This document shows, piece after piece, positions 4,332 through 39,285 of a stretch of 64,000 bases of DNA (within the stretch, counting starts at the first letter, position 1; each line of letters begins with the position of its first letter). The notes under the pieces were generated by a model, which was not told the origin of the DNA, searched no databases, and saw nothing but the letters and a program-made list of their open reading frames with translations. This DNA comes from Bolinopsis microptera (Eukaryota; Ctenophora; Tentaculata; Lobata; Bolinopsidae). The stretch spans positions 9,731,669-9,795,668 of the forward strand of contig NC_087072.1 of the NCBI RefSeq assembly GCF_026151205.1, written 5' to 3'. The position numbers were made by a program, and so were the translations under genes.

Positions 4332-4655
4332 ATAACATTATTTCCTCTCTCCTTTATTCCTTCCGTCTTTTCTTAAACTTACAGTTCAGTTACTTTATTT
4401 CACCAGGTCTACCTAAGGATCAATTATTCTTTGGTGGGGTTTCACTTCTGGTATTGGCTTCATTCCCGTTCCTTTTCCTTATTCTTTATACTTATTTTTT
4501 ATATAGTTTAATGAGATTAAACCCATACTTCTCAAAAACTTATGAACATAGACCGAATTCTTTCGTATGGCAAGCATGATTAGATATCTTCACTCTCCAG
4601 CGTCATGTTGATCATATTAAATCAGGACCGTTTAAGATAGACGAAGCCGGAATCA

Positions 4656-9846: not shown

Positions 9847-10065
9847 GCTGACAAGATTTCAGTCACGTGACCTGAAATCATTAGGCTTAAGAGGCAGTTC
9901 ACGTAATTGATCACGTGATCAAGAACTGATCGAGTGATCAAGTGATCATGACACTGATCACGTGATTAAGAATCCGATCACGTGATTACCCAATCCTTGT
10001 CAGACAATTTTCCAGACGTAGACTCCAGTCCTAGTGTCTGAAACCCGGCCTTGCCTAATCAAACC
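9847..10065 (+). repeat. E-box-rich dispersed repeat, copy 1 (inverted copy at 14985-15175)
   Basis: Begins CTGACAAGATTTCAGTCACG and ends with TGTCTGAAACCCGGCC. The reverse complement of 14985-15175 has the same order of landmarks. It carries several ATCACGTGAT palindromes and variants. It lies directly upstream of the kinase, so it may supply bHLH/bZIP-type binding sites. MITE-like, but terminal repeats were not resolved. Confidence 0.75.
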
Positions 10066-10076
10066 ACTTACAATGG

Positions 10077-10083
10077 TATATAA
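10077..10083 (+). promoter_or_regulatory. TATA box for the PIM-like kinase
   Basis: TATATAA lies 75 bp before the ATG at 10158. That leaves a short intron-free leader, consistent with the intronless gene. Inferred from sequence and spacing only. Confidence 0.5.
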
Positions 10084-10157
10084 TCCTCACGGACCCATTA
10101 CAAGTTATCTACATTTCCACATCTACTAGTTACAACTACATTCAACAATTCAACAAA

Positions 10158-10991: not shown

Positions 10992-11474
10992 ATTTTTTTA
11001 AATCATTCAAATATGGAAACTTTAATGAACTACATGCTTCATTTTCGGAGTGAACAAGTTGAGTTTATTTTAAGTATTTCTGTGTCATTATCACCATTTT
11101 AGAGCATTTTATACATTTTTACAATTTGTAATATCATTACTTTCACAATCAATCGGTTACAATGCAGATTACATTTTCTTGCGATTAGTACTAAAATTAT
11201 TTACGAAGTATTACAATTACGGTGCTTGCAGCAAATAAAATATTATCAACCAAGTCCCAAACATTCCATCATGCATACACAAATAAATGTGATCTCTTAG
11301 GATTATACTGCCATAGACAAAAAAGGTTAGGCAAAAACGTAGGTCTCTGAGTAAATCGGCCCCTCGACGTTTTATCGGAGTCAATATAGGCATAGTAAAT
11401 TTGTTAATTGCCCTCCACTCAAAAACAAGCCCATTATAATACACACTCCTCGTTAACCCACGATCCTGTTTCAG

Positions 11475-11757
11475 ATACGATCTATCTACGCTGAAAGGAA
11501 TAGAAGCTACATTTTCAGAACTGGAAGAAGTTGTGGGGTTGGAATACCTCAAAGCGTTCCATCTAAATGACAAGAAGGGACACTGTGATGACCACTTAGA
11601 CCGGCACGAGGTGTTAGGCGAGGGCTGCATCAAGTTACCTGTCTTTAAATATCTGGTCAAGAGGTTCCCGAACATTCCGATGGTTTTGGAGACACCTGAT
11701 GAGGACAAATGGGCTGAGGAACTTGTTATTCTCAGGGAATTGTTCAGTGGTGAGTGA
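11475..11757 (+). CDS. Terminal exon of an endonuclease IV (AP endonuclease family 2) gene, partial
   Basis: A splice acceptor (CCTGTTTCAG) precedes 11475. The exon opens in a frame reading YDLSTLKGIEATFSELEEVV, then LKAFHLNDKKGHCDDHLDRH, HEVLGEGCIKLPVF and VLETPDEDKWAEEL. These match the C-terminal half of Nfo/Apn1 enzymes, which cut DNA at abasic sites in base-excision repair. They include the zinc-binding HLND, D.H.H and E.P regions. The stop is TGA at 11755, but a good donor (GTGAGT) overlaps the last codons, so one more exon is possible. The exons for the N-terminal half of the barrel are not in the preceding 500 bp and I did not find them in the window. They may lie further upstream with the kinase nested in an intron, or this may be an isolated fragment. 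Confidence 0.8.
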
Positions 11758-12641
11758 AGCGCGAGGATTGGTTATTTATTTATTTTGATGATGTGAACTT
11801 AAAAGTTGACTTTCAGTATTGATATTAGGTGTTTATATTTTTGTTTAAATTAAAATAACGGGTATGCTAAGTTTTGGTTGCAATTTCGATTTTATCAAAT
11901 TGTAGTGGGTCTTGAAATAGATAACGGTTACCATAATAGGAGGCAAATCCAGTTTCCTGACATCATTACTTTAAGCACTTAAGTCGGGTTTTTTAGCAGG
12001 AATAAGTTAAGAGAAAGCATCTTGCATTCTGCAAAAATTGGTATTGTAACGGAGAAAGAACTTAATCCTAGACTACTATTTGCGCTGTTGAGTGTTGAGG
12101 AGAACTGTCTTCATTGGCGATATAATTTTTAGTTTGATGCATGTTTCCGTATTATGTATTATTAGTATCGTCATCGTTGAAATTTTGATTGAAATGTCAG
12201 TTGAAAAGATGATTGAAAGATGACATATTTTATCAATACAAGTTCTAGGTTCTCTCCTACTATAATTATAACGGTAACTCAATGTTGAACATACATTTTT
12301 TAGAGTTAGAGAAGAATAAACGACTTGAGTTTAAAATTATAGGATATAATTAAGACCGAATTTTGAATCGAATTTTGAATCGACCGATGAAGACATATAT
12401 ATTTACGTAAGCTTTAAAACCTTAAGCCAAGTGTTAGACAGATATCCTTGATTTTAAATTTTGCTAATTTATTTGTCGATTTTCAGTTTTATATACATTT
12501 ATTTTTGAATTGAGCTTTGTGATATTCATCATGACTTATAAGTATTTCTCTCTTAGTCTTATCAAAGCTGAAATTGGATTAATGAATTACTGTTCGATCA
12601 GGAGGTGTCAAAATCTAAGAATAATGAAAATTTACAATATA
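11758..12641. other. AT-rich non-coding stretch
   Basis: No gene, RNA or clear repeat seen between the endonuclease exon and the fold-back element. Confidence 0.5.
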
Positions 12642-15269: not shown

Positions 15270-18200
15270 TTCTGTTAAATTCTAGTTCAGTGATGGGACA
15301 GACTTTAGAAAATACAACTTTTCGTTTTGTTAAGCTTTCTGTTATGGGCTACTTCCGATCGAAATCAAACTTCCAGCACTTCAATCGTGTCATATGCCAC
15401 CTATAGTTGACTTACTAACTGGTTGCGGGTGAGAAATTCAGTCAAAACTGTAAAATTTCGGTCCTGGAAATTTCATCTTCAAAAACTGAAAATGGGACAG
15501 AGATTGGGACAATATGATTTTACAATTTTATTCGGGATTTTGACTTCCAGTATCCCGATTTGGTTTCATACCATCATCAATTAACTGACTAATTGGTTTC
15601 TGGGCAAAAATTTCATCTAATCTGTCAAATTGGTGTTCAGAAAATTTCATATTTGAAAATGAAACAGACTTTTGAAAATAACACTTTTCGTTTTGTTAAG
15701 CTTTCTGCTGTGGGCTTTCTCCGACCGAAATCAAATTTCCAGCACCTCAATCGTGTCATATGCCACCTATAGTTGACTACTAATTGGTTACGGGTGAGAA
15801 ATTCAGCCAAAACTGTAAAATTTCGGTCCTGCAAATTTCATCTTCAAAAACTGAAAATGGGACAGAGATTGGGACAATATGATTTTACAATTTTATTCGG
15901 GATTTTGACTTCCAATACCCCGATTTGGTTTCATACCATCATCAATTAACTGACTAATTAGTTTCTGGGCAAAAATTTCATATAATCTGTCAAATTTGTG
16001 TTCAGAAAATTTTATATTTGAAAATGGGACAGACTTTTGAAAATAAAACTTTTCGTTTTGTTAAGCTTTCTGCTGTGGGCTTCCTCCGACCGAAATCAAA
16101 CTTCAAGCACCTCAATCGTGTCATATGCCACCTATAGTTGACTTACTAATTGGTTACGGGTGAGAAATTCAGTAAAAACTTTAAAATTTCGGTTCTGCAA
16201 ATTTAATCTTCAAAAACTGAAAATGGGACAGAGATTGGGACAATATGATTTTGCAATTTTATTCGGGATTTTGACTTCCAGTATCCCGATTTGGTTTCAT
16301 ACCATCATCAATTAACTGACTAATTGGTTTCTGGGCAAAAATTTCATCTAATCTAGATCTGTCAAATTTGTGTTCAGAAACTTTCATATTTGAAAATGGG
16401 ACAGACTTTTGAAAATAAAACTTTTCGTTTTGTTAAGCTTTCTGCTGTGGGCTTCCTCCGACCGAAATCAAACTTCAAGCACCTCAATCGTGTCATATGC
16501 CACCTATAGTTGACTTACTAATTGGTTACGGGTGAGAAATTCAGTAAAAACTGTAAAATTTCGGTTCTGCAAATTTAATCTTCAAAAACTGAAAATGGGA
16601 CAGAGATTGGGACAATATGATTTTACAATTTTATTCGGGATTTTGACTTCCAGTATCTCGATTTGGTTTCATACCATCATCAATTAACTGACTAATTGGT
16701 TTCTGGGCAAAAATTTCATCTAATCTGTCAAATTTGTGTTCAGAAAATTTTATATTTGAAAATGGGACAGACTTTTGAAAATAAAACTTTTCGTTTTGTT
16801 AAGCTTTCTGCTGTGGGCTTCCTCCGACCGAAATCAAACTTCAAGCACCTCAATCGTGTCATACTACTACTACTACTACTATGTCGGAGCTAAGTCCGAT
16901 CTACGCCAGAAAACCCCCTCCATATATCCCTGTCCCGCATCAGGGTTCGCAGTTCCTCTTTAGAGTTTGTCCCAACTTCCTTCAGTAACATAGACAAGTA
17001 GCTTTGTCTTGGTCGGCCTTGCTGTGCTCTACCGTGCGTAGGTTCCCATAAGACTAAATCACTGGCAAGTAGCTCAGGATGTCGGATGCAGTGTCCCGCC
17101 ATTTTTAATCTCCTGCTTCGTAACTTGTTTGACAGCCTTGGGAGGCTACCATACAAAGTTATATTGCTGACCTTGTCCTTCCATGAGATACCCAGCACCA
17201 TACGCAACATCTTTGTGTATGTCCCGTCCAAACAAATCGTGTCATATGCCACCTATAGTTGACTTACTAATTGGTTACGGGTGAGAAATTCAGTAAAAAC
17301 TGTAAAATTTCGGTTCTGCAAATTTAATCTTCAAAAACTGAAAATGGGACAGAGATTGGGACAATATGATTTTGCAATTTTATTCGGGATTTTGACTTCC
17401 AGTATCCCGATTTGGTTTCATACCATCATCAATTAACTGACTAATTGGTTTCTGGGCAAAAATTTCATCTAATCTAGATCTGTCAAATTTGTGTTCAGAA
17501 AATTTCATATTTGAAAATGGGACAGACTTTTGAAAATAAAACTTTTCGTTTTGTTAAGCTTTCTGCTGTGGGCTTCCTCCGACCGAAATCAAACTTCAAG
17601 CACCTCAATCGTGTCATATGCCACCTATAGTTGACTTACTAATTGGTTACGGGTGAGAAATTCAGTAAAAACTGTAAAATTTCGGTTCTGCAAATTTAAT
17701 CTTCAAAAACTGAAAATGGGACAGAGATTGGGACAATATGATTTTACAATTTTATTCGGGATTTTGACTTCCAGTATCTCGATTTGGTTTCATACCATCA
17801 TCAATTAACTGACTAATTGGTTTCTGGGCAAAAATTTCATCTAATCTGTCAAATTTGTGTTCAGAAAATTTTATATTTGAAAATGGGACAGACTTTTGAA
17901 AATAAAACTTTTCGTTTTGTTAAGCTTTCTGCTGTGGGCTTCCTCCGACCGAAATCAAACTTCAAGCACCTCAATCGTGTCATATGCCACCTATAGTTGA
18001 CTTACTAATTGGTTACGGGTGAGAAATTCAGTAAAAACTGTAAAATTTCGGTTCTGCAAATTTAATCTTCAAAAACTGAAAATGGGACAGAGATTGGGAC
18101 AATATGATTTTGCAATTTTATTCGGGATTTTGACTTCCAGTATCCCGATTTGGTTTCATACCATCATCAATTAACTGACTAATTGGTTTCTGGGCAAAAA

Positions 18201-18888
18201 TTTCATCTAATCTAGATCTGTCAAATTTGTGTTCAGAAAATTTCATATTTGAAAATGGGACAGACTTTTGAAAATAAAACTTTTCGTTTTGTTAAGCTTT
18301 CTGCTGTGGGCTTCCTCCGACCGAAATCAAACTTCAAGCACCTCAATCGTGTCATATGCCACCTATAGTTGACTTACTAATTGGTTACGGGTGAGAAATT
18401 CAGTAAAAACTGTAAAATTTCGGTTCTGCAAATTTAATCTTCAAAAACTGAAAATGGGACAGAGATTGGGACAATATGATTTTACAATTTTATTCGGGAT
18501 TTTGACTTCCAGTATCCCGATTTGGTTTCATACCATCATCAATTAACTGACTAATTGGTTTCTGGGCAAAAATTTCATCTAATCTGTCAAATTTGTGTTC
18601 AGAAAATTTTATATTTGAAAATGGGACAGACTTTTGAAAATAAAACTTTTCGTTTTGTTAAGCTTTCTGCTGTGGGCTTCCTCCGACCGAAATCAAACTT
18701 CAAGCACCTCAATTGTGTCATATGCCACCTATAGTTGACTTAATAATTGGTTACAGGTGAGAAATTCAGTAAAAACTTTAAAATTTCGGTTCTGCAAATT
18801 TAATCTTCAAAAACTGAAAATGGGACAGAGATTGGGACAATATGATTTTGCAATTTTATTCGGGATTTTGACTTCCAGTATCCCGATT
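15270..18888 (+). repeat. ~366-bp satellite array with 738-bp dimer structure (left part)
   Basis: The landmark GATTTGGTTTCATACCATC recurs at 15557, 15922, 16288, 16660, 17409, 17781, 18147 and 18519, with a truncated start at 18885. Spacings alternate 372/366 because every second unit has an extra 6 bp (CTAGAT), so the recent expansion unit is a 738-bp dimer. One gap is enlarged by a 383-bp LINE insertion. Short frames inside are meaningless. A second array of the same family lies at 38093-39285. Confidence 0.95.
16864..17234 (-). mobile_element. 5'-truncated LINE insertion in the satellite
   Basis: A 371-bp insert flanked by a 12-bp target duplication (AATCGTGTCATA at 16852-16863 and 17235-17246). 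The minus strand ends in a (TAG)n tail. It encodes the C-terminal end of a LINE polyprotein: RRLKMAGHCIRHPE, LVLWEPTHGRAQQGRP, LMRDRDIW. Structure, tail and target duplication show target-primed insertion after the array formed. Confidence 0.9.
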
Positions 18889-19207
18889 CGCGCTCACTAA
18901 ATCGCTCGCCCAAACTTTTTTCATTTAACTGTTAATGCGTATTTTCGCATTGGATAAATTGCAAAATTGGTTTTGCTGTCAGGAGTGCTGCGCTGGTTCT
19001 ATATCCTCAGTAGTTTGCTTCAAGCTCAGTTAACGTCTAGCCTTAATAACACCTTATTCAGTTATTCTATACTTCATATTTGACTACACTATTTACTCGA
19101 TTAAAAGTCTGTGATTCATGATCAAAGGTATAGCATGTTAATTTCGAGTGATTAAAACTTAAAGTTCATCGCCAATGGTCAATTAGTGCTTTCGTTAACA
19201 ATTTCAG

Positions 19208-19309
19208 GTTTACTGCCGAGTTTTTGTTGGGTTGACCATTTTGTGGAAATCTACCGGATCAGGATGTCTCCATCCATTCGTGTCCCACTAAAGCTTCATC
19301 AAAAACAAG
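19208..19309 (+). CDS. Candidate first coding exon of the large transposon's gene
   Basis: Bounded by a good acceptor (ACAATTTCAG) and donor (ACAAG/GTACAT). ATG at 19264 gives MSPSIRVPLKLHQKQ, ending in phase 1. The same frame is also open upstream across the exon. Short, with no recognisable domain. Supported only by splice signals and position near the left end. Confidence 0.3.
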
Positions 19310-19555
19310 GTACATATACGTACACTTAGAGCACCTTCACCATTCAACTCTACTCCAGCTTCTATCAATCACGATTTTTCACTATCACTGTTTCATACAT
19401 CTTTCAGCAGTGCAACTTCATTATAAGCAGCTGTTTCGGGTTTCGATTGTTAATCATATTTTTGAGGTTTGAAGTGTCGTTTTTTCCATGAATTTGCTGG
19501 TATGTAAAATTAGGTGGCTTACGTAATAATATCGATTGACAGCAATGTAAATAAT

Positions 19556-19836
19556 GTAAATGTTAGTGAACACTCAAATTATTTGTTGTCATTCCTCATT
19601 TATGGTTGTTCTTGTCTAAGTGATTTTATGTAGTCGCAATTTATTAAAACTGACTATCAAAACCTTCCCCGCAGCTTGTTTTAACATAATATCATTTGAA
19701 ATCATAATTGGACAGTGGTCTCCCAAAGAGAGTGCTCCTTAAAATACCCAAACTCAGACGCCTAACATCACTGCACCAGCAATATGAGTTATCATGTAGA
19801 AAGGAAACCAATCTCACTGCTCAATTCCCATTACGG
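19556..19836 (+). repeat. 281-bp direct repeat, left copy
   Basis: Matches 21846-22126 at all but one of 281 positions. The two copies flank the 2-kb element at 19835-21845 exactly, like a giant target duplication. Confidence 0.95.
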
Positions 19837-21845
19837 GTAAACCGCCCCTAAAATGTCACCTGTTTTTTGGGCCCAGATTGCCGAGTTAGGGCTAAATTTA
19901 CAGGGTTCTGAAGTGTCTAGGAATAATATTTAAACCTTTTTCTAGCCTGCCAGGAAGATTTGGAAATTTGAAAATAAAATCAGGTACAATTTTTTTGACG
20001 TTGAAATGGAGTCACTTTTAAAACACCTCCCCTAAAATGTCAACTCTATATGTGTGATAATTACAAAATGTACAGGAGGCCTGATTTATATTTTGTCACT
20101 AGTACTATTTGTTTTGTCTAATTAAAACATTAAGCTACTTGAAAAAATTCACTCACTAAAGGAAGTGCCTCAAAACCGTAATTACCCCCTAAAATGTCAC
20201 ATGCACCACCCCTAAAATGTCAGCTAAAACAGGTTGTGTAGCATTCAGAATGTTGCTCAATTATTAATTTTAACCACTTCTGGGACAAATATAACCTATT
20301 TCTGAGAGGTGTTGACCAGAATTTCTCTCTCTGTTGAAAAAAAATGGTGGAATTTAGTCAATTTACTTTTTGTGACTTTTTGGGGACTTTTTTTTGAATA
20401 CCCAGAACTTACGGCAAAACAGTAACTCAGTCAACAAAATTTACACCTGTAGTTAGATTATCTAGTTATAAACTAACAATTGACACAAAGGAAATGGATT
20501 CAATGTGATTTTAACCTAGTGCAAATTGCATGTTTTAATTGCATTTTTTGGGATTTTTAACATCATCCTGCATTTTGGCAATTTTAGTGACCTGTAGTTA
20601 ACTAAGCCAACCCAGTAATCGATCTGACCTTCTCTATAGACTAGATTTGACTGCTTTTAGCAAAATTGGATGTCAAAAACTACTAGTTTATGGTAAACCT
20701 ATGATATGCCCCCTAAAATGTCATTTTTTTCTCCCCTAAAATGTCAAATTTGTTGTTTGTTCGCATGGTGTGCGATAATAGCTCTTGTTCCTCCTCCGTC
20801 TGTCACCAGACCTTCCTCTCCGTTTCCCGCTCATTGGACCAGGTGAGCTTGCATGCATGTGAATGTGGGTGTAAGTATAGCTGTACTGTAGTTTATACCT
20901 AATTAAACCCCTATAGGAACCGAAAATTTATTTTCTGGCAGAAAGCTAGAAATTTACCAAAATATCGTCATTGTTTTAAATTTATTTTGATAAATAATAA
21001 ATAAAGCCTGGTTTGTCATCAATGCAGTTGTAACAACTATGCTGTGGGTCTATCAGTGATATAAGAAGATTTAGTTTCCAAGAACACAGACTGTCGGAAA
21101 AATTATGTTGTGTGAAGATTTTTAAAATTTATTTTAAATTGAACTTTTATTGACTTATTGGCATTTTCTAGGCCAGATTGAGATAAATTTGGCTGGAAGG
21201 AGCTGTTCTTGTATGTAGCAATGCATTGCATCTTAGGAAAAGCCTGAGTAATTTGATCTTTTGATCAGGTTAAAATGACATTTTAGGGGGGATAATTAGA
21301 CATTTTAGGGGATGTTTATTGCGATTAATAATATAAAACTAATTCCTTGAGCTGCCAAAGCTTTCCAATATTACCATTAGATGCTAAATATGATGTTTAA
21401 TAGGCTGGTACCTCCATTTTATGGTGCTTGTAGTCTCAAAGCCAGAATCTGATAAAATGACATTTTAGGGGGCGGCCAGGTGACATTTTAGGGGAGGGTA
21501 GTAATATTGAGTAATGTATAACTTTCCATATCTCCAGTCATATGTACAAAGTTGCTAAAATATGTAAATATCACTATCCTAGACCAAAACCGAGTTAATA
21601 TTAATGAATCCCAGAGTTATAAAATTGTGCGCTTTTTTTCAAAAGTAAAAAATTCGTACAAAGTGAAAAAAAATGCCCTTATGGCATCATTTAGATTCAA
21701 TTTCAGGATGTGGCAGGGTCCGAATGATATTTTTTTATGTTTAGGAGTTACAAATGATTAGGTAAGATACTTTTTAAGAAGCTGGGATCCAATCAATCAA
21801 GAGTGGCATTTTAGGGGTGGCTGACATTTTAGGGGCGGTTTACCC
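19835..21845. mobile_element. 2.0-kb non-autonomous DNA transposon with subterminal repeats
   Basis: Inverted ends of at least 24 bp start GGGTAAACCGCCCCTAAAAT. The motif CCCCTAAAATGTCA recurs about six times in the left half (near 19844, 20034, 20191, 20211, 20710 and 20734) in one orientation. It recurs about six times in the right half (near 21276, 21297, 21456, 21481, 21806 and 21824) in the opposite orientation. Such arrays usually bind transposase. There is no transposase frame, so it must move in trans. Confidence 0.85.
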
Positions 21846-22126
21846 GTAAATGTTAGTGAACACTCAAATTATTTGTTGTCATTCCTCATTTATGGTTGTT
21901 CTTGTCTAAGTGATTTTATGTAGTCGCAATTTATTAAAACTGACTATCAAAACCTTCCCCGCAGCTTGTTTTAACATAATATCATTTGAAATGATAATTG
22001 GACAGTGGTCTCCCAAAGAGAGTGCTCCTTAAAATACCCAAACTCAGACGCCTAACATCACTGCACCAGCAATATGAGTTATCATGTAGAAAGGAAACCA
22101 ATCTCACTGCTCAATTCCCATTACGG
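21846..22126 (+). repeat. 281-bp direct repeat, right copy
   Basis: Second copy of 19556-19836 (one mismatch, C to G). It continues into sequence not present after the left copy. Confidence 0.95.
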
Positions 22127-22979
22127 TATATTAAAAGATTTTATATTTAGATCTTCTAAAATCTGGAGCACGTCATAGCGCCAAAACTCAAGCTTCTTGA
22201 CTACTCCTATAAAGATAGCCTCGCTCAAAGATAAAACATCCGATAACTCGCTACAATTACAAATAATATACTACAAACAATGTATATGGACACGTTCATT
22301 TGAGTTTGAGGATATTGGTAAACAAAAATAATAGCATTTTCGACGATAGTGGCTTAATTTTGACATATATTAACCTAGCACGTTCAGAAGTTCTGAACAT
22401 TATAGCCACGTAACCCATACTCCCATATGCACTGCTCAGATAGAAAATCTATTGTTGTTAGGCACTATAATGGTTCAAATGTCACATCTTGTGTGACTTA
22501 GTTAACTGCAGTTGTCTAACTATCATTCCTTGGTCTGAAATATAGTAGATTAGGTCAATCTAACAATTATGATACAACATTGGTTAAAGGGCACGGATCA
22601 ATGAAACAAGAAATTCAATGAAACAAGAAATTTAATTTTAGCACATTTTTACAGAATAAAAAGATGTAAAACAATTCATAAAATATAATGCCCATTTGGT
22701 GTATGACTTTTTGTCCTTGACTGCTAGTTTGGTTTTGGAAGGACAGGTAACTAACGGGGCAAGAAATGCGCGTGCCTGGAAGCTTTTGCACACACCGAAA
22801 CGCTAGTTCAGTTAAGTTTATAGAGACAAGGCTCAGATTAGGACTAGAAGAAAAATTGTAAGCAGACATTAGGAGTTCTGTTTATAGTTGTTATTATAGG
22901 TTACAGTCTTGTTGTGACAAAAAGTCTACACTACGGTAAAACATTCTTTAGTTTATATTGTGTAGTTCAAGGATATAAA
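22127..22979. other. Non-coding interior of the large transposon
   Basis: No reliable gene. Short frames on both strands only. Confidence 0.4.
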
Positions 22980-23046
22980 ATGCAGCTTCAAGCTTTCAAG
23001 GTGGATATTGGAGAGCTGGCGAAAGATTATGGCCTTTGTATCAATG
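22980..23046 (+). CDS. Possible SAP-like exon of the large transposon's gene
   Basis: From ATG 22980 the frame reads MQLQAFKVDIGELAKDYGLC followed by ING. It then meets a GT donor (ATG/GTTATA). The spacing of hydrophobic residues resembles the first helix, turn and Gly of a SAP DNA-binding domain (F.V..L......GL..nG). Too short for certainty; the continuing exon was not found. Confidence 0.3.
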
Positions 23047-23412
23047 GTTATAATAAGCTATAAATATCTTAAACTATACAGTGCTAATTAAGATTTCTTT
23101 AAACTTCATTCTCAAATTAGATTTTAAAAATTCAAAAGTAAATATACAATAATTTTATTAAAACTTTCTCACACCTCACACATACTTTACTCACAGGACA
23201 AGACTTGGAAAACAGTAGCCTAGGGTAATTTTATTTGAGATGTGTGTGACCAGCCAGTTATAATGTTTGGGAAATAAGATTTGCGCAGTCAAAATCTTTG
23301 ACAGTCCAATCAAGCAGGGCGTGATTATGTTGATTCGTTAATAGCGCACGTTTTAGCTTACCTCGCAAGCACATTACACTAGTAGTAAAGTCAGTCATTC
23401 TGAATTTTGGGG

Positions 23413-24130
23413 TTAAATGTTAAAATTTTTGGTTGATCTAGTGTTGTGATTGTCAGGTGGGTCTGCCTGACAGATTAGAAGGCAGGGTTTCCTCGAGGAA
23501 CATGTGTAACCCTCATGTAAGGATATTGGAGCACGGAATTTCATTATCTTGTAGAGCTCGAGGTAACTGTGGTATGTATAGAGATTTTGTATAGCTAGAA
23601 TATTATTATGCTTAAATATCGGTTTGGTGTGCTCTTTTATGAAAACTTTTTGGTCAAGTTTCTGGTGTCCTATAGGCCTAGTACGTGCACAAGTCTTAAA
23701 CTTATCAAGGTATGCCAGCCTGTCACCAAATAGTACTCTGAGACAGTACTTCTGAGCAGTAAATAATGAGCTTATACGTTGTTTCGCTGCCCCACCCCAT
23801 ACAGATATACAGTAGGAAAGATGTGATTCGAACAGGGTATAATATAATTGTTGGTGTAGAAATTCTGGAAGGGAGCAGCGAAGTCTACATAAAGTGGATG
23901 TGGAATGATTTAGAGTTCGCTTAAGAGCTTTAATGTGATCTTCCCATGATAGGTTCTCGTCAATTATAACACCCAGAAATTTTGCGGATGAAACCTTTTT
24001 GATTGGAAAGTTGTCTATAGTTAATACAACTTCAGGGTGTGATAAAGTCTCTAACTTAGAACCTGCCATGGTGGGTTTGAAGTGTATGTAGCAGCACTTG
24101 GACATGTTTATATGTAATTTATATGTAAGA
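23413..24130 (-). pseudogene. 5'-truncated LINE reverse transcriptase fragment
   Basis: The minus frame reads INMSKCCYIHFKP, KFLGVIIDENLSWEDHI, LYYTLFESHLSYCISVWGG and QKYCLRVLFG. This is the thumb and post-RT region of CR1/Jockey-like LINE polyproteins. The YADD region and everything upstream are missing: in-frame sequence is blocked by a stop just beyond 24120. The last 230 codons are intact, ending at 23413. A dead fragment within the large transposon. Confidence 0.85.
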
Positions 24131-24289
24131 CTTTAATGATGACAAAAGCTCATTTACATCGAACGGTTACAAGCCAATATTTGGGTAACTTTGTCACACT
24201 CAGAATACCATACCTCTATTCTACTGTGAGGTGTCCTCAAAAACCTTTTAACTCATTATTTTATGGTTGATCTACCAATCTAATAATCT

Positions 24290-25440
24290 ACCAAAGTCAC
24301 TAAAAATGTGACAAAATAAACTTTTCCTGCCCCAAAAGTTTCAAGATAGTGTGTAAAAATTAGCATAGGCTGCTTTATTGCCTATATAAATCAATCCAAA
24401 CTACGAAAAATATCTGTTAATCTGATGACGATTACTTAAGTCTAATAATAACTGATGTGACAAAGTAAACATGTCTTGCGCCTATTTTGAAGATCTATAA
24501 CTCTATTGGAATTCAGCATTCTTTCAGAAACGATTGGTAGAATATTGTCTAGAACATCATGGAGCTCAAGTTTAACAATTTTAGGTTAAATTTGTCAAAG
24601 ACACTGAAAATGTAACAAAATTAACTTTTCCTGCCCCAACAATATCAAGATAGTGTGTTAAAATTGACATATGATGCTTTATTGCCTATATTAATCGATA
24701 CAAACTACGAACAAGATCTGTTAATCTGATGACGATTACCTAAGTCTAATAATAACTGATGTGACAAAGTAAACATGTCTTGCCCCTATTTTGAAGATCT
24801 ATAACTCTATTAGAATTCAGCATTCTTTCAGAAACGATTGGTAGAATATTGTCTAGAACATCAGAGCTCAAGTTTAACAATTTTAGGTTAAATTTGTCAA
24901 AGTCACTAAAATGTGACAAAATTAACTTTTCCTGCCCCAACAATTTCAAGATAGTGTGTAAAAAATTAGTATAGGCTGCTTTATTGCCTATATAAATCAA
25001 TCCAAACTACGAAAAATATCTGTTAATCTGATGACGATTACTTAAGTCTAATAATAACTGATGTGACAAAGTAAACATGTCTTGCGCCTATTTTGAAGAT
25101 CTATAACTCTATTGAAATTCAGCATTCTTTCAGAAACGATTGGTAGAATATTGTCTAGAACATCAGAGCTCAAGTTTAACAATTTTAGGTTAAATTTGTC
25201 AAAGTCACTAAAAATGTGACAAAATTAACTTTTCCTGCCCCAACAATATCAAGATAGTGTGTTAAAATTGACATATGATGCTTTATTGCCTATATTAATC
25301 GATCCAAACTACGAACAAGATCTGTTAATCTGATGACGATTACCTAACTCTTATAATAATTAGTGATGTGACAAAGTAAACATGTCTTGCCCCTATTTTG
25401 AAGAGCTATACCTCTATTAGAATACTATGTAACTTTATCA
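24290..25440 (+). repeat. ~302-bp satellite, about 3.8 copies in A-B-A-B order
   Basis: The landmark TTAATCTGATGACGATTAC recurs at 24417, 24721, 25023 and 25325. Copies 1 and 3 share one set of variants (CTTGCGCC, CTTAAG) and copies 2 and 4 another (CTTGCCCC, CCTAAG or CCTAAC), so the duplicated unit is again a dimer (~604 bp). Non-coding. Confidence 0.9.
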
Positions 25441-26162
25441 TCAATGAACTAGTTATTTTGCCAGCAAGGAGCTAACAGAGTTATAATAATTTTTTGTGAC
25501 GAAATAACCCTATTTTTGACCATGTTGCGGTAGTTTAATTGTGACACTGTTAACATATTACCACCCGTTAATGATTTATGTGGCTGGTGCGTGGTACTAG
25601 CAGTGTTGTTTGATCCATCTATCAATATTAGCTTGCTCACTGTGACCACGGGTTTTCTAATAGTACATAATATAAGGGGTTTAAGCTGGTATATGATTAT
25701 TTGTTCAATTTCACACATGTTCAGATATCATCAAGATTATGCGACAAAGTAAACTTGTTTGTGCCTTCTGTGTTTTAATTCCTTACGACTATTATGATAT
25801 AATAACAATTCCTAGCACTTCCAGGCCATCAAATAAACCTACGCTACTCAGCATTGCTTATCAGGGCCAGGGTGCCCTAAACATTCTTCACATGTTTTCT
25901 TAAACCGTTTCAGTCACCGGCTACACCACCCAGTCTAAGTACCTTCTCTGTTCTAGCCATACCAGGGTCCTAGCCATACCAGCGTTCCTTACGCTCAGTA
26001 CTAGCACATAACTGGTAGTCCCATAACGAGCACAATCGCCCCTACTTAACAACACTCGTCGACGCTCCCTGTACTTGTATTTTGGACATTTACTTTACTA
26101 TCAATTAATTGAGTATTAAATAACAATCAGATTAATCAATAACTAATTACCCACATTTCCAG

Positions 26163-26251
26163 GTCACCGTCAGTCCGAGTGTCCATTGTGATTGCCTGAA
26201 CTTCAGGTCTTACCCAGAATTACCGTGCAAACATTTTATTGGCGGTTATTC
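26163..26251 (+). CDS. SWIM-like zinc-finger exon
   Basis: Acceptor (ACCCACATTTCCAG) before 26163 and donor (TTC/GTGAGT) after 26251. The open frame contains HCDCLNFRSYPELPCKHFIG, that is CxC-x10-CxH, the SWIM zinc-binding pattern found in Mutator-type transposases, YqaJ-linked transposon proteins and some cellular proteins. It ends in phase 2. A TGA follows if the donor is not used. With its position inside the 15-kb element, it is most simply part of the element's own gene. Confidence 0.45.
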
Positions 26252-27204
26252 GTGAGTCGAACGTTGAATGGACCGATCTTCCGCTTTCATTCAGGTAAGA
26301 AACGGATCTTGCTTCATTAAAGTAATTATGAATAACCTATTTCAGCGTAAAACTAGTTGTTTGATCATTGCATCCTCTTGTAAAATAAACTAAATAACAA
26401 AAGTAGATAGATAAAGTGAATATTTAACAAGTTAACCCTTATCATACTGGGGTGCTTGGAGCTCATTCATTACTGGGGGTGGGTTGAAAGGACCCATCCC
26501 TAATAACTTTGGTTCTAGACGGTATTCAGCCACCACAAAAAGTGGAATGCTCTAGTTATACTTAGTTCTACAAGACTCATTATGTTCTAAAGGGCCAGAT
26601 AGTGCACAAGTGCACAAGATAGTCTCCTGCGTTAATTGAGAAATCACGTGGGATATCACAAGTTTATCACATGATACAGGCCTCAAAGTGATCCATGATC
26701 TCCATATAAGGAGCGGTTGTTGATCTAATTAATCCTCAGGTTAATGGGGGTGGGTTGAATCAACCCATCCCTAAGAAACGATTGTTGATTCGATTTACTC
26801 CTAGAATACTGGGGGGTGGGTTGAATCAACCCATCCCTAAGAAACGACTGTTTATCAGATTTACTCCTAGAATACTGGGGATGGGTTGAATCAACCCATC
26901 CCAAATCAGCCCGTATAAGGAGTGCTTGTTTTATAAATTGAGTTAAATTTTGCAGAACGCTGCAGGGATTGGTCAATCGCAAACATGAGTGTATGTGTGT
27001 GAATTTGAAAGTTGTGAACTATGCGACTCTACTCCAAATTTCATTATCAAGGTAGATACATTTTAGGAAAGACTCAAACAAACGAAATTTAAAAATAAAG
27101 TCAAGTTTTCGATCATAATCAGTGTAAAAAATATATAACATTTGGATATGAGTATTCGTACGAAAGAATTAATGGTTCATTTACACGAGTCACATTATGA
27201 AATA

Positions 27205-27345
27205 AGATGAACCTTCGTGCACATTCTAAGTCCACAACTTGGACACTGACTTTTGACCTTCGACAAACCGCAGACCTTCTTCTTGTAACCAGGTCCTGAT
27301 GCGTCCTTTACACACTGAACACACCGACTAGGCAGACCTGGACCT
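27205..27345 (-). pseudogene. piggyBac transposase C-terminal cysteine-rich domain
   Basis: The minus-strand frame reads SRCVQCVKDASGPGYKKKVC, then SQCPSCGLRMCTKVHL and a stop. This CxxC...CxxC...C...H array is the C-terminal zinc-binding tail of piggyBac transposases. A stop lies just upstream, and the middle of the transposase between this and 27543 is not recognisable. Confidence 0.75.
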
Positions 27346-27542
27346 CACCAAGGGTAGCAATGGTGTGTTTGGGTCACGACTTGTATCATGATCCGTACTC
27401 CTCAGAAACTTAGGGTCTTCGGTTTCTAAGTAGCAGTTGGTAAGGGTCCAGGTGCTAAGGCCGTGCAAGGACCTGTTCCTAATAGCAGGGAATGAAGAGG
27501 GCACGGGCAAGGTCTAATGGGCTTGATAGGTGTACGGGTATA

Positions 27543-27971
27543 TCACCGAGTTGAGTGCTTTGATGATAATACCATACTTTGCTGTTTGCTCTTCATGTAC
27601 TGGAGAAAACGGAAGCGCTTTCTAGTCGGATACAGACATTCATCAACTGTGAGGTATACCTCACAGTTGATGAATGTCTGTATCCGACTAGAAATATATT
27701 GATCAGGTATTAGTTCCGTGGCGAAATTAGCTTGGCACTTTTCGTAAAACTCGCGAATTGCCGTGAACCGGTCTCTTTTCCAATGCTCTGCTCTATCGTG
27801 TCGCATCTCTTTAGTTTCGAATGTTATTTTCGTCGACAGAAAGAAGAATCTGTTCCTGGACATCACCGCAGGAAATGCTGGAAAGTCCATCAGAAAGTGA
27901 GTAAATAGTCCGCAGACCGTCAAGGGCAGCTCCTCTCCCCGAAAGTAGATAAGGCCAATGAAAGCACACAT
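27543..27971 (-). pseudogene. piggyBac transposase, N-terminal/central fragment
   Basis: The minus frame includes CAFIGLIYFRGEELPL, MSRNRFFFLS, DRFTAIREFYEKC and YLTVDECLYPTRKRFRFLQY. These match the DDE_Tnp_1_7 domain up to the first catalytic Asp (TVDE) and the following QYM.SK motif. Open from 28010 or so to 27543 only. Just before TVDE the natural sequence is replaced by an inverted copy of the same stretch (palindrome 27619-27694). The second and third catalytic acids are missing, so this is inactive. Confidence 0.88.
27619..27694. repeat. Perfect 76-bp palindrome inside the piggyBac transposase
   Basis: Two 38-bp arms meet at GGTATACC (27653-27660) with no mismatch and no spacer. One arm is the normal codons for the TVDE motif and the other is its inverted duplicate. 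It looks like a local inverted duplication that broke the gene. Confidence 0.95.
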
Positions 27972-28784
27972 CTCAACCTTGTCAGTTATGCTAATGTAGG
28001 TGTACTTGTCATTCAGTCATTCATAAGAAGTTCAGGATTAAGTTTTTCCGACGATTCGAGCGTTGGTGTCCTTGACGTTTCAGGTACATTGATGTTATTG
28101 TTCATGTTGTTGTAACCCGTTCAAATAATTTACAACAACACTAATTGCAGTTGAAGTTAAACATTCAGACGAATTGGAGATATTTTTACTAGCTAACAAT
28201 GAAACCTTTCAATAGAGGGGTCGAAAAGATACATAAACTTTAGGTTGCCATTGGTTCTTCTACTAATTAACATTATTTCAACAATTTCTTGAAACATTTA
28301 TTCAAATTTGCAGATTTTTCATATCGTTTCTCGTAAACTATAGCTCTATAGATGTTCAAGCGGTCGGCTCAAGTGTGTTGAGTTGAGTGTAAGCTTGATT
28401 GGATTAGCCATTGACGTGCATGAAAGGGTGAAGTGCTAGACCCACTATGCCGTTCACTAGGAACCTCAATTCGGTCCCAGAGCTCCTGTATCACGTGATG
28501 TGACGCAGTATACCACGTGTTCAGCTCTAATATAGGAAGCAAAATCACTAATAGGCTAGAGAGCAAAAATTGCACTAAAATGAAGCAATTTCGGCATAAT
28601 TATGCTAATAGCTCTCCGGCCGATTGAAACTTGTTGATAAAAATAATATGGCTGATAGAGGAGATGATGCTGATAAAAGTCATATAAGTCAATATAAATT
28701 GAAATTTATCAAGTAACATTTATTTGTTACTGAACGGGAGGGATGGACGAATCAACCCACCCCCAGTATGATAAGGGTTAACAC

Positions 28785-29864
28785 TTTAACACAAAAGTTA
28801 ATTGATAAAATTAACAATCACCATGTAAACATGCGAGGTCATGAAAGCCCTCAACAACCCCTCCTTCATGAAGAGCTAGCTAAAGTGTTCAACGAGTCTT
28901 TCGAGAAAAACATTCACATTGAAGCAATAGGAGCAGGCATCCTTACACCACTGGCATAAGCCTGGTAAAACTCGCGGCCCAGTTAAGTCGATATGACCAT
29001 TGACCCTGCTGAATGTTTCTAGAAAGATCTTGTCACTGATAGTGCTAAACAGAATAGAGAGAGCTGTGGACAACTTCACCGGACCGTTCCAAGCTGCCTA
29101 CAAAGCTGGCAGAAGCTGTGCCGACCTAGTTTGGGCACAGAGCATGCTCATATCTGTAGTAATGAAGAAGGAGTTTGAATGGAACAAAAGTGAGTATTGA
29201 CATGTCAGCTGCCTTCAATGCCATCCGCAGAGGTACAACAATCAGACTACTAGAAGCTGCAGGATGCTCCAGAGACGACCTGAGGCTTGTACAATACCTC
29301 ATGGCTAACACACTCTAGTAGTCAGAGTGTGTTCTACTGATCAGAGATGTTCTCTTTCAACATAGGAGCCTCCCAAGGAGACAGCACAGCTGGTAAATTG
29401 TTTACCCTCAATCTAGCTGGAGCTGTAGTGCACATAAGAGCAGTCCTCCCCTCAAGACCCAACACTTCCGATAGCCGATAAACCACATGCCTCTTGAGTC
29501 CGGCTATTCAGACGATGTAAAGAAGATTGGTGAAGATATGGAGGAGTTACAGGATATCTTTCAGATCTCCAAGAATATTCTCAGTGAATGGAGTCTCTTT
29601 GTCAATGACACAAAGATAAAGTTTACCAGAGTGTATTTAGAAGAAGTTGGTGCCTGCGACGAGTGGGATAATGAGCTAAGAGGAAAAGAGGAGTGGAGAA
29701 ACGAGACGCTTCTTGGTACTAAGCTTAGATCAGAGCAGGATGTTACTAATAGAATAAATAAAGCTAACACCGCCTTCTGGTCATTTGACAAGCTGTGGTG
29801 CCAGGGATCAGAGAGGAGTCAGATAAATGAAAAGAGAAAGATCAAACTCTATGACCGCTGCTAA
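28785..29864 (+). pseudogene. Frameshifted LINE reverse transcriptase
   Basis: Spread over three + frames. Recognisable pieces are LLHEELAKVFNESFEKN, LTLLNVSRKILSLIVLNRIE, FQAAYKAGRSCADLVWAQ, SAAFNAIRRGTT, GASQGDSTAGKLFTLNLAG, GYSDDV (a decayed YADD) and ETLLGTKLRSEQDVTNRI with FWSFDKLW. The motif order (fingers, A, B, C, thumb) is correct, with several frameshifts and stops. It abuts the right end of the piggyBac element. Confidence 0.85.
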
Positions 29865-29982
29865 TGTTATGTATATGTTACTATCTTGCTGTTCAAATAT
29901 GTGTATTGCAATGAACATATATTTTTTCGACGATGTATCAAAACATTTAACATTCAGGCTTTCGGAGATTGACAAAGATTGA

Positions 29983-30162
29983 CATGACGGTAACAGCAAC
30001 TCGGGACGATTTGTCACTGCTGTCAACGACTTCTCGGGCAGAAAAGCGGACGGACTTCGCAGATTCGCTCCCAAAGCGAGCAAAAAAAAGCGAAAGAAGT
30101 TTCCCGAAAGGAAACTAAATTATGGTTTCGGATCAGACTCTGATTTCGAGAATGATGTATGA
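29983..30162 (+). CDS. Candidate terminal exon with basic then acidic tail
   Basis: An open frame contains KASKKKRKKFPERKLNYGFG and ends SDSDFENDV before TGA at 30160-30162. AG acceptors at 29996 or 29958 could feed it. A lysine cluster followed by an acidic SDSD end is typical of nuclear proteins. AATAAA occurs about 120 bp later (near 30280). Family unknown. It could be the last exon of the large transposon's gene or captured host sequence. Confidence 0.35.
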   Translation, partial: HDGNSNSGRFVTAVNDFSGRKADGLRRFAPKASKKKRKKFPERKLNYGFGSDSDFENDV

Positions 30163-30564
30163 TTTGGTCGAATTTTATGAATTTAAATCTGATTTTTGTT
30201 TTATTTTATTGCATCATTTATTGCTTTATTAATTTTTTCTTTTTTACAAAACAAGTTGTTCTCATTTTAATACAGTATAATGAATAAAACCATCTTCTCT
30301 TGATTCCCTGTTCTACGTAACACTTATTATGAGTCTCCGATCGCTTAAAAGAGGAAAAATGTATCTGTTCATTGTTCAAGTAGGTCATTAAAATGGATTA
30401 GTTGCTTACCCAAATATTATATTCAGAAAAACAGCAAGCGAGCATTATTGGGATTGTTGTTAAAGCAACCTCAAACAAATTGATAGATTATTAATACACA
30501 AATGCTGTATGCTATTGAGAGTACACTTACAGCAAACCACGCTGATAGTATGCTATAATTTCAA

Positions 30565-33500
30565 ATAATACTGGATATAGTGAACTGTATTTCCCAATAA
30601 TACTGGAGATAAGTGTACTGTATTTTCAAATAATACTGGAGATAAGTGTACTGTATTTTCCATTAATACTGGAGATTAGCGTACTGTATTTTCCAATAAT
30701 ACCGGAGATAAGTGTACTGTATTTTCCAATAATACTGGAGATAAGTGTACTGTATTTTCCAATATTACTGGGGATAAGTGTACTGTTATTTTCCAATAAA
30801 ACTGGAGATAAGTGTACTGTATTTTCCATTAATACTAGAGATAAGTGTACTGTATTTTCCAATAATACTGGGGATAAGTGTACTGTATTTTCCAATAATA
30901 CTAGAGATAAGTGTACTGTATTTTCCAATAATACTGGAGATAAGTGTACTGTATTTCCCAATAATACTGGAGATAAGTGTACTGTATTTTCCATTAATAC
31001 TGGGGATAAGTGTACTGTATTTTCCATTAATACTGGAGATAAGTGTATTGTATTTTCCAATAATACTAGAGATAAGTGTACTGTATTTTCCAATAATACT
31101 AGAGATAAGTGTACTGTATTTTCCAATAATACTAGAGATAAGTGTACTGTATTTTCCAATAATACTGGAGATAAGTGTACTGTATTTCCCAATAATACTG
31201 GAGATAAGTGTACTGTATTTTCCATTAATACTGGAGATAAGTGTACAGTATTTTCCAATAATACCGGAGATAAGTGTACTGTATTTTCCAATAATACTGG
31301 AGATAAGTGTACTGTATTTTCCAATATTACTGGAGATAAGTGTACTGTATTTTCCAATAATACTGGAGATAAGTAAACTGTATTTTCCAATAATATTAGA
31401 GATAAGTGTACTGTATTTTCCAATAATACTGGGGATAAGTGTACTGTATTTTCCAATAATACTGGAGATAAATGTACTGTATTTTCCAATAATACTGGAG
31501 ATAAGTGTACTGTATTTCCAATAATACTGGAGATAAGTGTACTGTATTTTCCAATAATACTGGAGATAAGTGTACTGTATTTCCTAATAATACTGGAGAT
31601 AAGTGTACTGTATTTTCCTATAATACTGGGGATAAGTGTACTGTATTTTCCAATAATACGGGAGATAAATGTACTGTATTTTCCAATAATACTAGAGATA
31701 AGTGTACTGTATTTTCCAATAATACTGGAGATAAGTGTACTGTATTTCCAATAATACTGGAGATAAGTGTACTGTATTTTCCAATAATACTGGAGATAAG
31801 TGTACTGTAATTCCAATAATACTGGAGATAAGTGTACTGTATTTTCCATTAATACTGGGGATAAGTGTACTGTATTTTCCATTAATACTGGAGATAAGTG
31901 TACTGTATTTTCCAATAATACTAGAGATAAGTGTACTGTATTTTACAATAATACTAGAGATAAGTGTACTGTATTTTCCAATATTACTGGGGATAAGTGT
32001 ACTGTATTTTCCAATAATACTAGAGATAAGTGTACTGTATTTTCCAATAATACTAGAGATAGGTGTTCTGTATTTTCCAATAATACTGGAGATAGGTGTA
32101 CTGTATTTTCAAATAATACTGGAGATAAGTGTACTGTATTTTCCATTAATACTGGGGATAAGTGTACTGTATTTTCCATTAATACTGGAGATAAGTGTAC
32201 TGTATTTTCCAATAATACTAGAGATAAGTGTACTGTATTTTCCAATAATACTAGAGATAAGTGTACTGTATTTTCCAATATTACTGGGGATAAGTGTACT
32301 GTATTTTCCAATAATACTAGAGATAAGTGTACTGTATTTTCCAATAATACTGGAGATAAGTGTACTGTATTTCCTAATAATACTGGAGATAAGTGTACTG
32401 TATTTTCCTATAATACTGGGGATAAGTGTACTGTATTTTCCAATAACACTGGAGATAAATGTACTGTATTTTCCAATAATACTAGAGATAAGTGTACTGT
32501 ATTTTCCAATAATACTGGAGATAAGTGTACTGTATTTCCAATAATACTGGAGATAAGTGTACTGTATTTTCCAATAATACTGGAGATAAGTGTACTGTAA
32601 TTCCAATAATACTGGAGATAAGTGTACTGTATTTTCCATTAATACTGGGGATAAGTGTACTGTATTTTCCATTAATACTGGAGATAAGTGTACTGTATTT
32701 TCCAATAATACTAGAGATAAGTGTACTGTATTTTCCAATAATACTAGAGATAAGTGTACTGTATTTTCCAATATTACTGGGGATAAGTGTACTGTATTTT
32801 CCAATAATACTAGAGATAAGTGTACTGTATTTTCCAATAATACTAGAGATAGGTGTTCTGTATTTTCCAATAATACTGGAGATAGGTGTACTGTATTTTC
32901 AAATAATACTGGAGATAAGTGTACTGTATTTTCCATTAATACTGGAGATAAGTGTACTGTATTTTCCATTAATACTGGGGATAAGTGTACTGTATTTTCC
33001 ATTAATACTGGAGATAAGTGTACTGTATTTTCCAATATTACTGGGGATAAGTGTACTGTATTTTCCAATAATACTAGAGATAAGTGTACTGTATTTTCCA
33101 ATAATACTAGAGATAAGTGTACTGTATTTTCCAATAATACTAGAGATAGGTGTTCTGTATTTTCCAATAATACTGGAGATAGGTGTACTGTATTTTCAAA
33201 TAATACTGGAGATAACTGTACTGTATTTTCCATTAATTATATTGTAGGTTAGTGTACTGTATTTTCAAATAATACTGGAGATAAGTGTACTGTATTTCCA
33301 ATAATACTGGAGATAAGTGTACTGTATTTTCCAATAAAACTGGAGATAAGTGTACTGTATTTTCCATTAATACTAGAGATAAGTGTACTGTATTTTCCAA
33401 TAATACTGGGGATAAGTGTACTGTATTTTTCAATAATACTAGAGATAAGTGTACTGTATTTTCCAATAATACTGGGGATAAGTGTACTGTATTTTCCAAT

Positions 33501-33735
33501 AATACTGGAGATAAATGTACTGTATTTTCAAATAATACTGGAGATAAGTGTACTGTATTTCCAATAATACTGGAGATAAGTGTACTGTATTTCCCAATAA
33601 TACTGGAGATAAGTGTACTGTATTTTCCATTAATACTGGGGATAAGTGTACTGTATTTTCCATTAATACTGGAGATAAGTGTACTGTATTTTCCAATAAT
33701 ATTGGAGATATAAAGTGAATTGTATTTTCCAATGT
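30565..33735 (+). repeat. 33-bp minisatellite, about 96 copies
   Basis: Unit ATAATACTGGAGATAAGTGT followed by ACTGTATTTTCCA, 33 bp, with occasional 32-bp units. Because 33 is a multiple of three, long frames appear on both strands and in several frames. They shift at each 32-bp unit and are artefacts. Blocks repeat at 790 bp (for example 31735 and 32525), so the array grew by block duplication. Confidence 0.97.
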
Positions 33736-34128
33736 GGAAAGCATATTTGAAGTCTATTATTTTGCTTTCCCAATTATATATTAGCAATAAGGAAGTGCTA
33801 CTACTTAAATGACAACGAACCACTCTGACTACTGACAAAAAGAGTTTTGATGTCTGTATAGACTTATCAGGTGGCCTTTTTAATGATCCAGATATGGCAA
33901 TATCTGGTCTCTGAAAACCACAAATATTGACTTATCCGCGGGCGCGGAACGTTTTGAGTGAACTTTGCTAGTAGGCAGAACATGTGGTTCGCCGGTGCTA
34001 AATTATCACAGATAACTAACGCGCATTTAGGAGACGCGCAAAAGTTGAAATTGTTATTACGGTTTGGGCGAGCGATTTAGAAAGAGCCATCCCGATTTGG
34101 TTTCATACCATCAAAATTATCTTGATCG

Positions 34129-38024: not shown

Positions 38025-38092
38025 GAGGACGTCTCCAAAACCAGCATACTCCCAGACGGTCACCAGATCGTTCTTCACAGTAACTCAGTACC

Positions 38093-39285
38093 CCAATTTG
38101 GTTTCATAATTCATACCATCATCAATTAACTGATTAATTGGTTTCTGGGCAAAGATTTCATCTAATCTGTCAAATTTGTGTTCAGAAAATTTCATATTTG
38201 AAAATGGGACCGACTTTTGAAAATACACCTTTCTTTTTGTTAAGCTTTCTGCTGTGGGCTTCCTCCGACCGAAATCAAACTTCCAGCACCTCAATCGTGT
38301 CATATGCCACCTATAGTTGACTTACTAAATGGTTGCGGGTGAGAAATTCAGTCAAAACTGGAAATTTCATCTTCAAAAACTGAAAATGGGACAGAGATTG
38401 GGACAATATGATTTTACAATTTTATTCGCAATTTTGGCTTCCAGTACCCCGATTTGGTTTCATACCATCATCAATTAACTGACTAATTGGTTTCTGGGCA
38501 AAAATTTCATCTAATCTGTCAAATTTGTGTTCAGAAACTTTCATATTTGAAAATGGGACAGACTTTTGAAAATAAAACATTTCGTTTTGTTAAGCTTTCT
38601 GCTGTGGGCTTCCTCCGACCGAAATCAAACTTCAAGCACCTCAATTGGGTCATATGCCACCTATAGTTGGCTTACTAATTGGTTACGGGTGAGAAATTCA
38701 GTCAAAACTGTAAAATTTCGGTCCTGCAAATTTCATCTCAAAAACTGAAAATGGGACAGAAATTGGGACAATATGATTTTACAATTTTATTCGCGATTTT
38801 GGCTTCCAGTACCCCGATTTGATTTCATACCATCATCAATTAACTGACAAATTGGTTTCTGGGCAAAAATTTCATCTAATCTGTCAAATTTGTGTTAAGA
38901 AAATTTCATATTTGAAAATGGGACAGACTTTTGAAAATACAACTTTTCGTTTTGTTAAGCTTTCTGCTGTGGGATTCCTCTGACCGAAATCAAACTTCCA
39001 GCACCTCAATCGTGTCATATGCCACCTATATAATAGTTGACTAACTGGTTGCGGGTGAGAAATTCAGTAAAAACTGTAAAATTTCGGTCTGGAATTACCT
39101 GGAAATTTCATCTTCAAAAACTGAAAATGGGACAGAGATTGGGACAATATGATTTTACAATTTTATTCGGGATTTTGGCTTCCAGTACCCCGATTTAGTT
39201 TCATACCATCATCAATTAACTGACTAATTGGTTTCTGGGCAAAAATTTCATCTAATCTGTCAAATTTGCGTTCAGAAAATTTGCA
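38093..39285 (+). repeat. ~366-bp satellite array (right part)
   Basis: Three-plus diverged copies of the unit seen at 15270-18888 (landmark at 38096, 38451, 38816 and 39192). These copies read CAGTACCCCGATTTGG instead of CAGTATCCCGATTTGG, so they form a separate, older subfamily. Confidence 0.93.

Follow-up and report, generated by a model that had tools for sequence, protein, structure and literature searches.

What kind of element lies inside a satellite array of the ctenophore Bolinopsis microptera, and by what means did it come to be there? The question was raised by a 64,000-nucleotide stretch of contig NC_087072.1 (assembly GCF_026151205.1, positions 9,731,669 to 9,795,668), hereafter called the window, whose own numbering is used below unless a prefix is given. 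A preliminary description, made from the letters of this stretch, had proposed a single giant DNA transposon flanked by a 9-bp duplication within the satellite, and this observation was confirmed. The element (18889-34088, plus orientation, 15,200 bp) is inserted within one satellite unit and is very probably a giant non-autonomous element that arose from a Mutator-like (MULE) DNA transposon by internal deletion; the enzyme that moved the window copy most likely came from outside it.

The insertion and its ends

The tandem satellite (unit of about 366 bp) occupies 15293-18888, and the element breaks a unit at a single point. The same nine bases, ATCCCGATT, were found exactly on both sides: the left copy (18880-18888) inside the satellite unit, and the right copy (34089-34097) where the satellite resumes in register. 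The joined flanks gave a 340-bp reconstructed empty site (joint at 300|301), and bases 1-325 of this query (325 of 340, reaching 25 bp beyond the joint) matched seven satellite places at 92.9-98.2% and two further satellite places at 88%. The right flank carries only 34 bp of satellite (34089-34122) and is followed by other DNA, with the satellite back at 38086-39282. By eye, the right flank from 34110 onward resembles a 726-bp palindromic foldback in another copy of the family (K 5412-6138).

Terminal inverted repeats of 27 bp lie directly inside the duplication. The left one (18889-18915, plus strand) consists of CGCGCTCA and the 19-mer CTAAATCGCTCGCCCAAAC, and the right one (34062-34088, read on the minus strand) of GGCTCTTT and the same 19-mer; this common part, which had already been recognised as an inverted 19-mer inside both junctions, occupies 18897-18915 (+) and 34062-34080 (-). 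The outermost 8-9 bp had been described as matching poorly. The outer 8 bp do differ, but this is a conserved, end-specific property of the family and not decay: among the 15 examined copies longer than 5 kb, CGCGCTCA was kept at the left end in 14 (F deviates) and GGCTCTTT at the right end in 14 (N deviates). The termini are asymmetric because each outer 8 bp is kept at its own end.

Across the 264.65-Mb assembly the 19-mer had 66 exact matches, and 937 when one mismatch was allowed; a control pattern, read backwards, had none. The exact matches make 23 head-to-head pairs within 25 kb, and these pairs were the set for the duplication test (unpaired exact ends and one-mismatch ends lay outside it). 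Twenty-one pairs were examined, C2:18381585 and C10:5061 being left out. Exact 9-bp duplications were present in 16 of the 21, window included, with 16 distinct sequences, and as a control for this agreement within copies, left and right 9-mers were compared across copies and agreed in 0 of 420 comparisons. The duplication was exact in 14 of the 15 examined copies longer than 5 kb; the five examined pairs lacking an exact one were I, q15, q16, q17 and q18.

Blast searches with the end regions gave 31 left and 44 right matches, and other end variants were found at 6, 24 and 5 places, 34 of which were not within 20 kb of any listed MULE match. In seven of nine sampled one-mismatch loci the paired ends are merely 350-470 bp apart, and these short pairs mostly combine CGCTCCTA on one side with GGCTCTTA or GGCTTTTA on the opposite side. 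The 937 matches suggest a large gene-less progeny, which may share the binding site.

The transposase gene of the family

Besides the ends, SWIM-like and SAP-like exons inside the element had been noted and taken to suggest a Mutator- or KDZ/Zisupton-type gene. The SWIM zinc-finger exon is indeed present (26163-26294, plus strand, AG/GT borders); matches to it were found at 13 family loci, with 85-100% identity in the best piece, and at 10 of these the match is full-length and free of stops. A SAP exon was not recovered: there was no SAP match at E≤0.05 among the 104 window open reading frames (ORFs) of at least 40 amino acids, in a scan that also missed the short SWIM exon and that a short SAP exon could likewise escape.

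The fullest gene was found in copy P (C13:14157381-14175578, 18,198 bp), which is bounded by these same ends and flanked by the 9-bp duplication CTTAAATTT. Its exons were recognised through a second MULE family (C5:3347900-3357900, L051-L052), whose related exons are about 50% identical and whose SWIM exon, 52% identical, is present at four full-length loci; in 10 kb of one of its loci no convincing 19-mer-like end was seen. When the large copies A (the window copy), F, E, M, O and P were compared with the C5 exons, only P matched further exons convincingly, and in the same order. Profile searches with spliced exons had been suggested as a check, and the joined exons of P (with X at the frame break) matched the MULE domain PF10551 (E 5.7e-14, positions 2-98 of 99) and the ZSWIM1-3 RNaseH-like domain PF21056 (E 8.8e-15), both above cut-off, with an additional weak SWIM match (E 0.0079). 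A PDB search with the catalytic part returned one match (E 0.04), a designed protein, which was taken as chance.

For each of the nine exon pieces of P, AG/GT borders lie no more than two bases from the peptide ends, and the SWIM exon follows the D, D and E exons in the gene. Three acidic positions (in LDSTHKTN, MTDID and NNGVEALN) are common to P and the C5 relative; in our reading they are the putative DDE triad. The family thus combines a 9-bp duplication (the MULE range being 8-11 bp, usually 9), shared inverted ends, a MULE DDE domain in P and a SWIM finger after the catalytic domain, all of them marks of the MULE superfamily, the finger being common in it but not universal; the Mutator half of the proposed type stands, and its KDZ/Zisupton half is without support.

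No MULE-type DDE domain was found in the window copy: it has no listed match to a D exon, it lacks the 9.2-kb block described below, and of the exons of the C5 relative the SWIM exon alone matches it convincingly. In the giant family itself, the SWIM exon has a 1-bp frameshift in the window copy, in Lc and, as judged from a split match, in D. With the SWIM exon frameshifted and the catalytic exons missing, the window copy has no intact gene. An ORF scan of Lc also found no transposase. Copies E and M, which share the ends and some inner blocks with the other copies, form a second type.

Three loci were set aside. The nearest candidate among the MULE matches, C1:5448864, was rejected as the family transposase, since it turned out to be a neighbour, 7.7 kb away from an end of a separate 1.7-kb element. 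The SWIM loci at C1:20656537 and C11:8551200 were rejected as members: they lie outside the ends, and the stretch over which they are homologous to each other does not reach the ends, so that their position may be coincidence. These two loci (L053, C1:20656498-20656761, and L054, C11:8551083-8551385) belong to another SWIM exon family of 19 loci and stand about 3 kb from giant-family ends, at nearly equal distance.

Probable deletion, spread and contents of the copies

Twelve derivatives were aligned with P by blocks longer than 120 bp, short blocks in the 302-bp repeats being omitted. All lack P 3248-12472, a 9.2-kb segment that holds the D, D and E exons. In ten of the derivatives (A, B, C, D, F, G, J, Lc, N and O) the deletion junction is unbroken; it is lost in I, and in K it is interrupted by the 726-bp palindromic foldback insert, which lies at a TTAA touching the junction. 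Two LINE-like (long interspersed nuclear element) blocks are absent from P and would have been gained by the founder of the derivatives rather than lost by P: F 1404-2984, present in 10 of the 12 (the region is lost in J and O), which is LINE-like by motif and had no Pfam match in the window, and F 6192-7755, present in 11 (not in I, and shortened in the window copy), which codes for a reverse transcriptase (RVT_1, E 3.3e-17 in copy Lc). The open reverse-transcriptase frame of Lc (up to 502 amino acids) was rejected as cargo, since at so low a divergence (about 1%) its being open does not speak for selection.

The 12 derivatives differ from one another by 0.4-2.2% (median 1.0%) and from P by 2.6%. 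This set lacked segments S2 and S3 for copy I and segment S4 for P, and it excluded E and M, whose similarity to the others is confined to the end regions and some inner blocks. The junction and blocks common to the derivatives agree with descent from a single founder and imply that a unit of about 9-11 kb, including a 33-bp minisatellite array, was what spread; because the 12 derivatives differ by only about 1%, this spread was recent.

We infer the following course. A MULE transposase from a fuller copy would bind the 27-bp ends, excise the unit and insert it at a 9-bp staggered cut, repair of which would yield the 9-bp duplication. The founder of the lineage of the window copy would have lost the 9.2-kb catalytic-exon segment and gained the two LINE-like pieces; units of roughly 9-11 kb would then have spread with transposase supplied in trans. 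The window copy would have landed in the satellite unit and later acquired a piggyBac element and probably a 2-kb element flanked by TA.

Several points weigh against the derivation of the element from a MULE transposon of this family. The SWIM exon of the window copy scored E 0.0017 and 18.3 bits with Pfam PF04434, below the curated cut-off of 19.6 bits; exon joins were read by eye from genomic sequence. The first D exon of P has a frame break, so that P may be inactive. As for an intact gene in other copies with the same ends, for which the preliminary description had proposed a search, such copies do exist (the 66 exact 19-mers and 23 pairs), and none with a complete undamaged transposase gene was found. 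Among the 29 matches listed in a search with the two D exons, at least 80% identity was reached only by P, a partial locus (C3:8924630-8925337) and a 31-residue piece (C3:17484701), and these alone belong to the giant family. A genome scan with PF10551 gave 88 matches, none inside the 23 exact-end pairs, and missed P, probably through its split exons. No SWIM exon was found in E and M by motif or exon search, and an ORF scan of M gave no Pfam transposase. The tree of copies is poorly resolved and places F beside P (support 0.32), in disagreement with a single founder; the deletion may also, as a guess, have arisen by imprecise loss of a foldback-type insert such as that in K, and mobilisation in trans is itself only inferred.

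Four other explanations were weighed against these results. That misassembly or satellite recombination joined the junctions by chance deserves practically no credence: satellite flanks are prone to misassembly and the right one holds only 34 bp of satellite, but same-ended copies with duplications of their own stand in other contexts on several chromosome-size contigs, which refutes it. An element of KDZ/Zisupton type, with a SWIM exon from a KDZ transposase and a KDZ-type duplication, was suggested by the SWIM-like exon and the length of the element; the gene of P matches the MULE and ZSWIM1-3 RNaseH-like models well above their cut-offs, however, and makes a KDZ origin highly improbable. 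A genome search for the KDZ domain PF18758 had 0 matches and was uninformative, since its control was also silent everywhere.

The SWIM exon and the P gene might instead be passengers, all elements with the 27-bp ends being moved by a different transposase encoded elsewhere. The 937 matches to the 19-mer, the short spacing of ends in seven of the nine sampled loci, the retention of catalytic exons at few loci and the failure to find a SWIM exon in E and M would fit such a history. Set against them, the exons of P sit inside the ends and follow the order seen in the C5 relative, and the superfamily to which its gene belongs has known duplications of 8-11 bp (PMC6446971), which fits the 9 bp; we regard passengers as unlikely, if less so than a KDZ origin. 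Finally, the 9.2 kb could be an insertion in P, the derivatives being ancestral, as the clean junction in 10 of 12 derivatives would allow. Yet the segment holds upstream exons of the same gene in C5-relative order, and the partial locus at C3:8.92 Mb has five long blocks of it (554-2019 bp, 91.6-99.3%) beside a right end of the giant family. A derived P is therefore about as improbable as a KDZ element, and derivation of the window copy by deletion from a MULE of the P type is preferred.

The extra length of the window copy comes from its piggyBac and a 2-kb TA-edged element. The piggyBac (26436-28777) is flanked by TTAA at 26432-26435 and 28778-28781 and contains a transposase fragment (27543-28016, minus strand; DDE_Tnp_1_7, 3.9e-12). 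An ancestral piggyBac common to the copies was rejected, the site being empty in 10 other copies (nine derivatives and P); D has one flank only, and I none. The nested 2.0-kb element (19834-21846) has inverted repeats, TA at both edges and at least 40 related places in the genome, and its first 400 bp had 41 listed matches at 95-100% identity. Its inverted repeats are perfect over 28 bp, and within 19555-22127 it is flanked by direct repeats of about 280 bp of host-element sequence, which we guess to be the product of recombination between two insertions at different sites. Six copies of this insert family elsewhere were inspected for long duplications: the left end was recognised in four, the right end in none.

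Between and beyond these inserts lie further features. An open frame at 23413-24132 (minus strand), in a block absent from P, is taken to be LINE reverse-transcriptase-like by motif; Pfam gave 0 families for it at E≤1. Tandem repeats of 302 bp (24292-25423) also occur in F, Lc and I, and with 306 bp in P. A LINE reverse-transcriptase fragment (28997-29864, plus strand), weak in this copy, belongs to a block found in 11 of the 12 derivatives and absent from P. The probable last transposase exon (29983-30162, plus strand), judged from its position and its conservation in P, has a basic tail and ends in SDSDFENDV and a stop. The 33-bp minisatellite array follows (30559-33733), with 96 units in the window copy and a length that varies among relatives.

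Elsewhere in the window, a class C G-protein-coupled receptor gene forms one 814-amino-acid frame (6992-9433, minus strand; 7tm_3 1e-33, NCD3G and ANF_receptor), and a protein kinase a single open frame of 310 amino acids (10059-10988, plus strand; Pkinase 4.9e-52). A LINE-type reverse-transcriptase frame was seen at 40936-42327 (minus strand; RVT_1 7.6e-26). At 44858-46437, coding-length frames run on both strands over 24/72-bp tandem repeats, the minus-strand frame having no Pfam match.

Relation to known systems

ZSWIM1 and ZSWIM3 are host genes. Their proteins (PF21056) resemble the product of P in an RNaseH-like domain of the same Pfam family and in the SWIM finger, and differ in that the gene described here sits between transposon ends. 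Maize Mu deletion derivatives are gene-poor units moved in trans after internal deletion or with foreign inserts, and in this they are similar to the giant derivatives.

Pack-MULEs (PMC6431247) share with the giant derivatives the character of gene-poor units with internal deletions or foreign inserts, moved in trans; those of plants described by Jiang in 2004 are at most 7 kb, as stated there, and no host gene fragment was identified here (in our Pfam scans only transposon-type domains matched strongly, and diverged or non-coding host DNA could escape these). MULEs that have 9-bp duplications and SWIM fingers are already well documented (PMC6446971). The animal groups Curupira, Ghost, MULE-Cg and Phantom of that paper are alike in the MULE DDE domain and, each in several groups, the 9-bp duplication, SWIM finger and inverted ends; unlike them, the fullest copy here has 18.2 kb and at least nine exons, and its derivatives spread as units of about 9-11 kb. 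No ctenophore group appears in the examined parts of its tables. Rehavkus, a MULE outgroup (Table 1 of PMC6446971), likewise has a 9-bp duplication, a minisatellite and terminal repeats (26-400 bp, a range that includes the 27 bp found here). It carries a PHD finger, whereas the giant element has a SWIM finger and its minisatellite after the probable last exon. No PHD finger was found among the 62, 85 and 104 ORFs (at least 40-42 amino acids) of Lc, M and the window, nor in the joined exons of P, and exons not recovered could hold one. Tm1 or Foldback Mutator elements (PMC3169594) share the 9-bp duplication, relatives like miniature inverted-repeat transposable elements, and the coexistence of transposase-bearing and gene-less members; their composite terminal repeats vary in length, in contrast to the 27-bp ends of this family, whose 33-bp array lies near the right end only.

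According to PMC6431247, the efficiency of DNA transposition falls off strongly once the cargo exceeds about 6 kb; complete arthropod MULEs are reported to measure 1.4-10 kb (PMC13359780), and MULEs are reported to be rare in animals (median 0 in 100 genomes; PMC8277862). Mutator ends have been discussed in connection with chromatin loops of placozoans, and DNA transposons in connection with promoters of a ctenophore (PMC12221973). The passages used of PMC11797021 and PMC10232365 do not mention such a family (the former has 0 occurrences of Mutator, the latter 0 of transposon), and no report of this family was found in an open-licence library of papers.

A tentative proposal, to which we give somewhat less than even weight, is that ctenophores harbour a giant-MULE lineage with a full form of about 18 kb and a ZSWIM1/3-related transposase of about 10 exons, which can transpose as units of 9-11 kb or longer that carry LINE passengers and growing minisatellites, past the supposed size limit of cut-and-paste transposition. 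A young family that moved in units of 9-11 kb, and of which an intron-rich relative of 18 kb is still partly preserved, is a natural test of that limit, and a ZSWIM1/3-related lineage in ctenophores would be informative about how those host genes arose. Large size, an intron-rich gene and a minisatellite set the family apart within the known MULE superfamily, of which it is a member and not a new kind.

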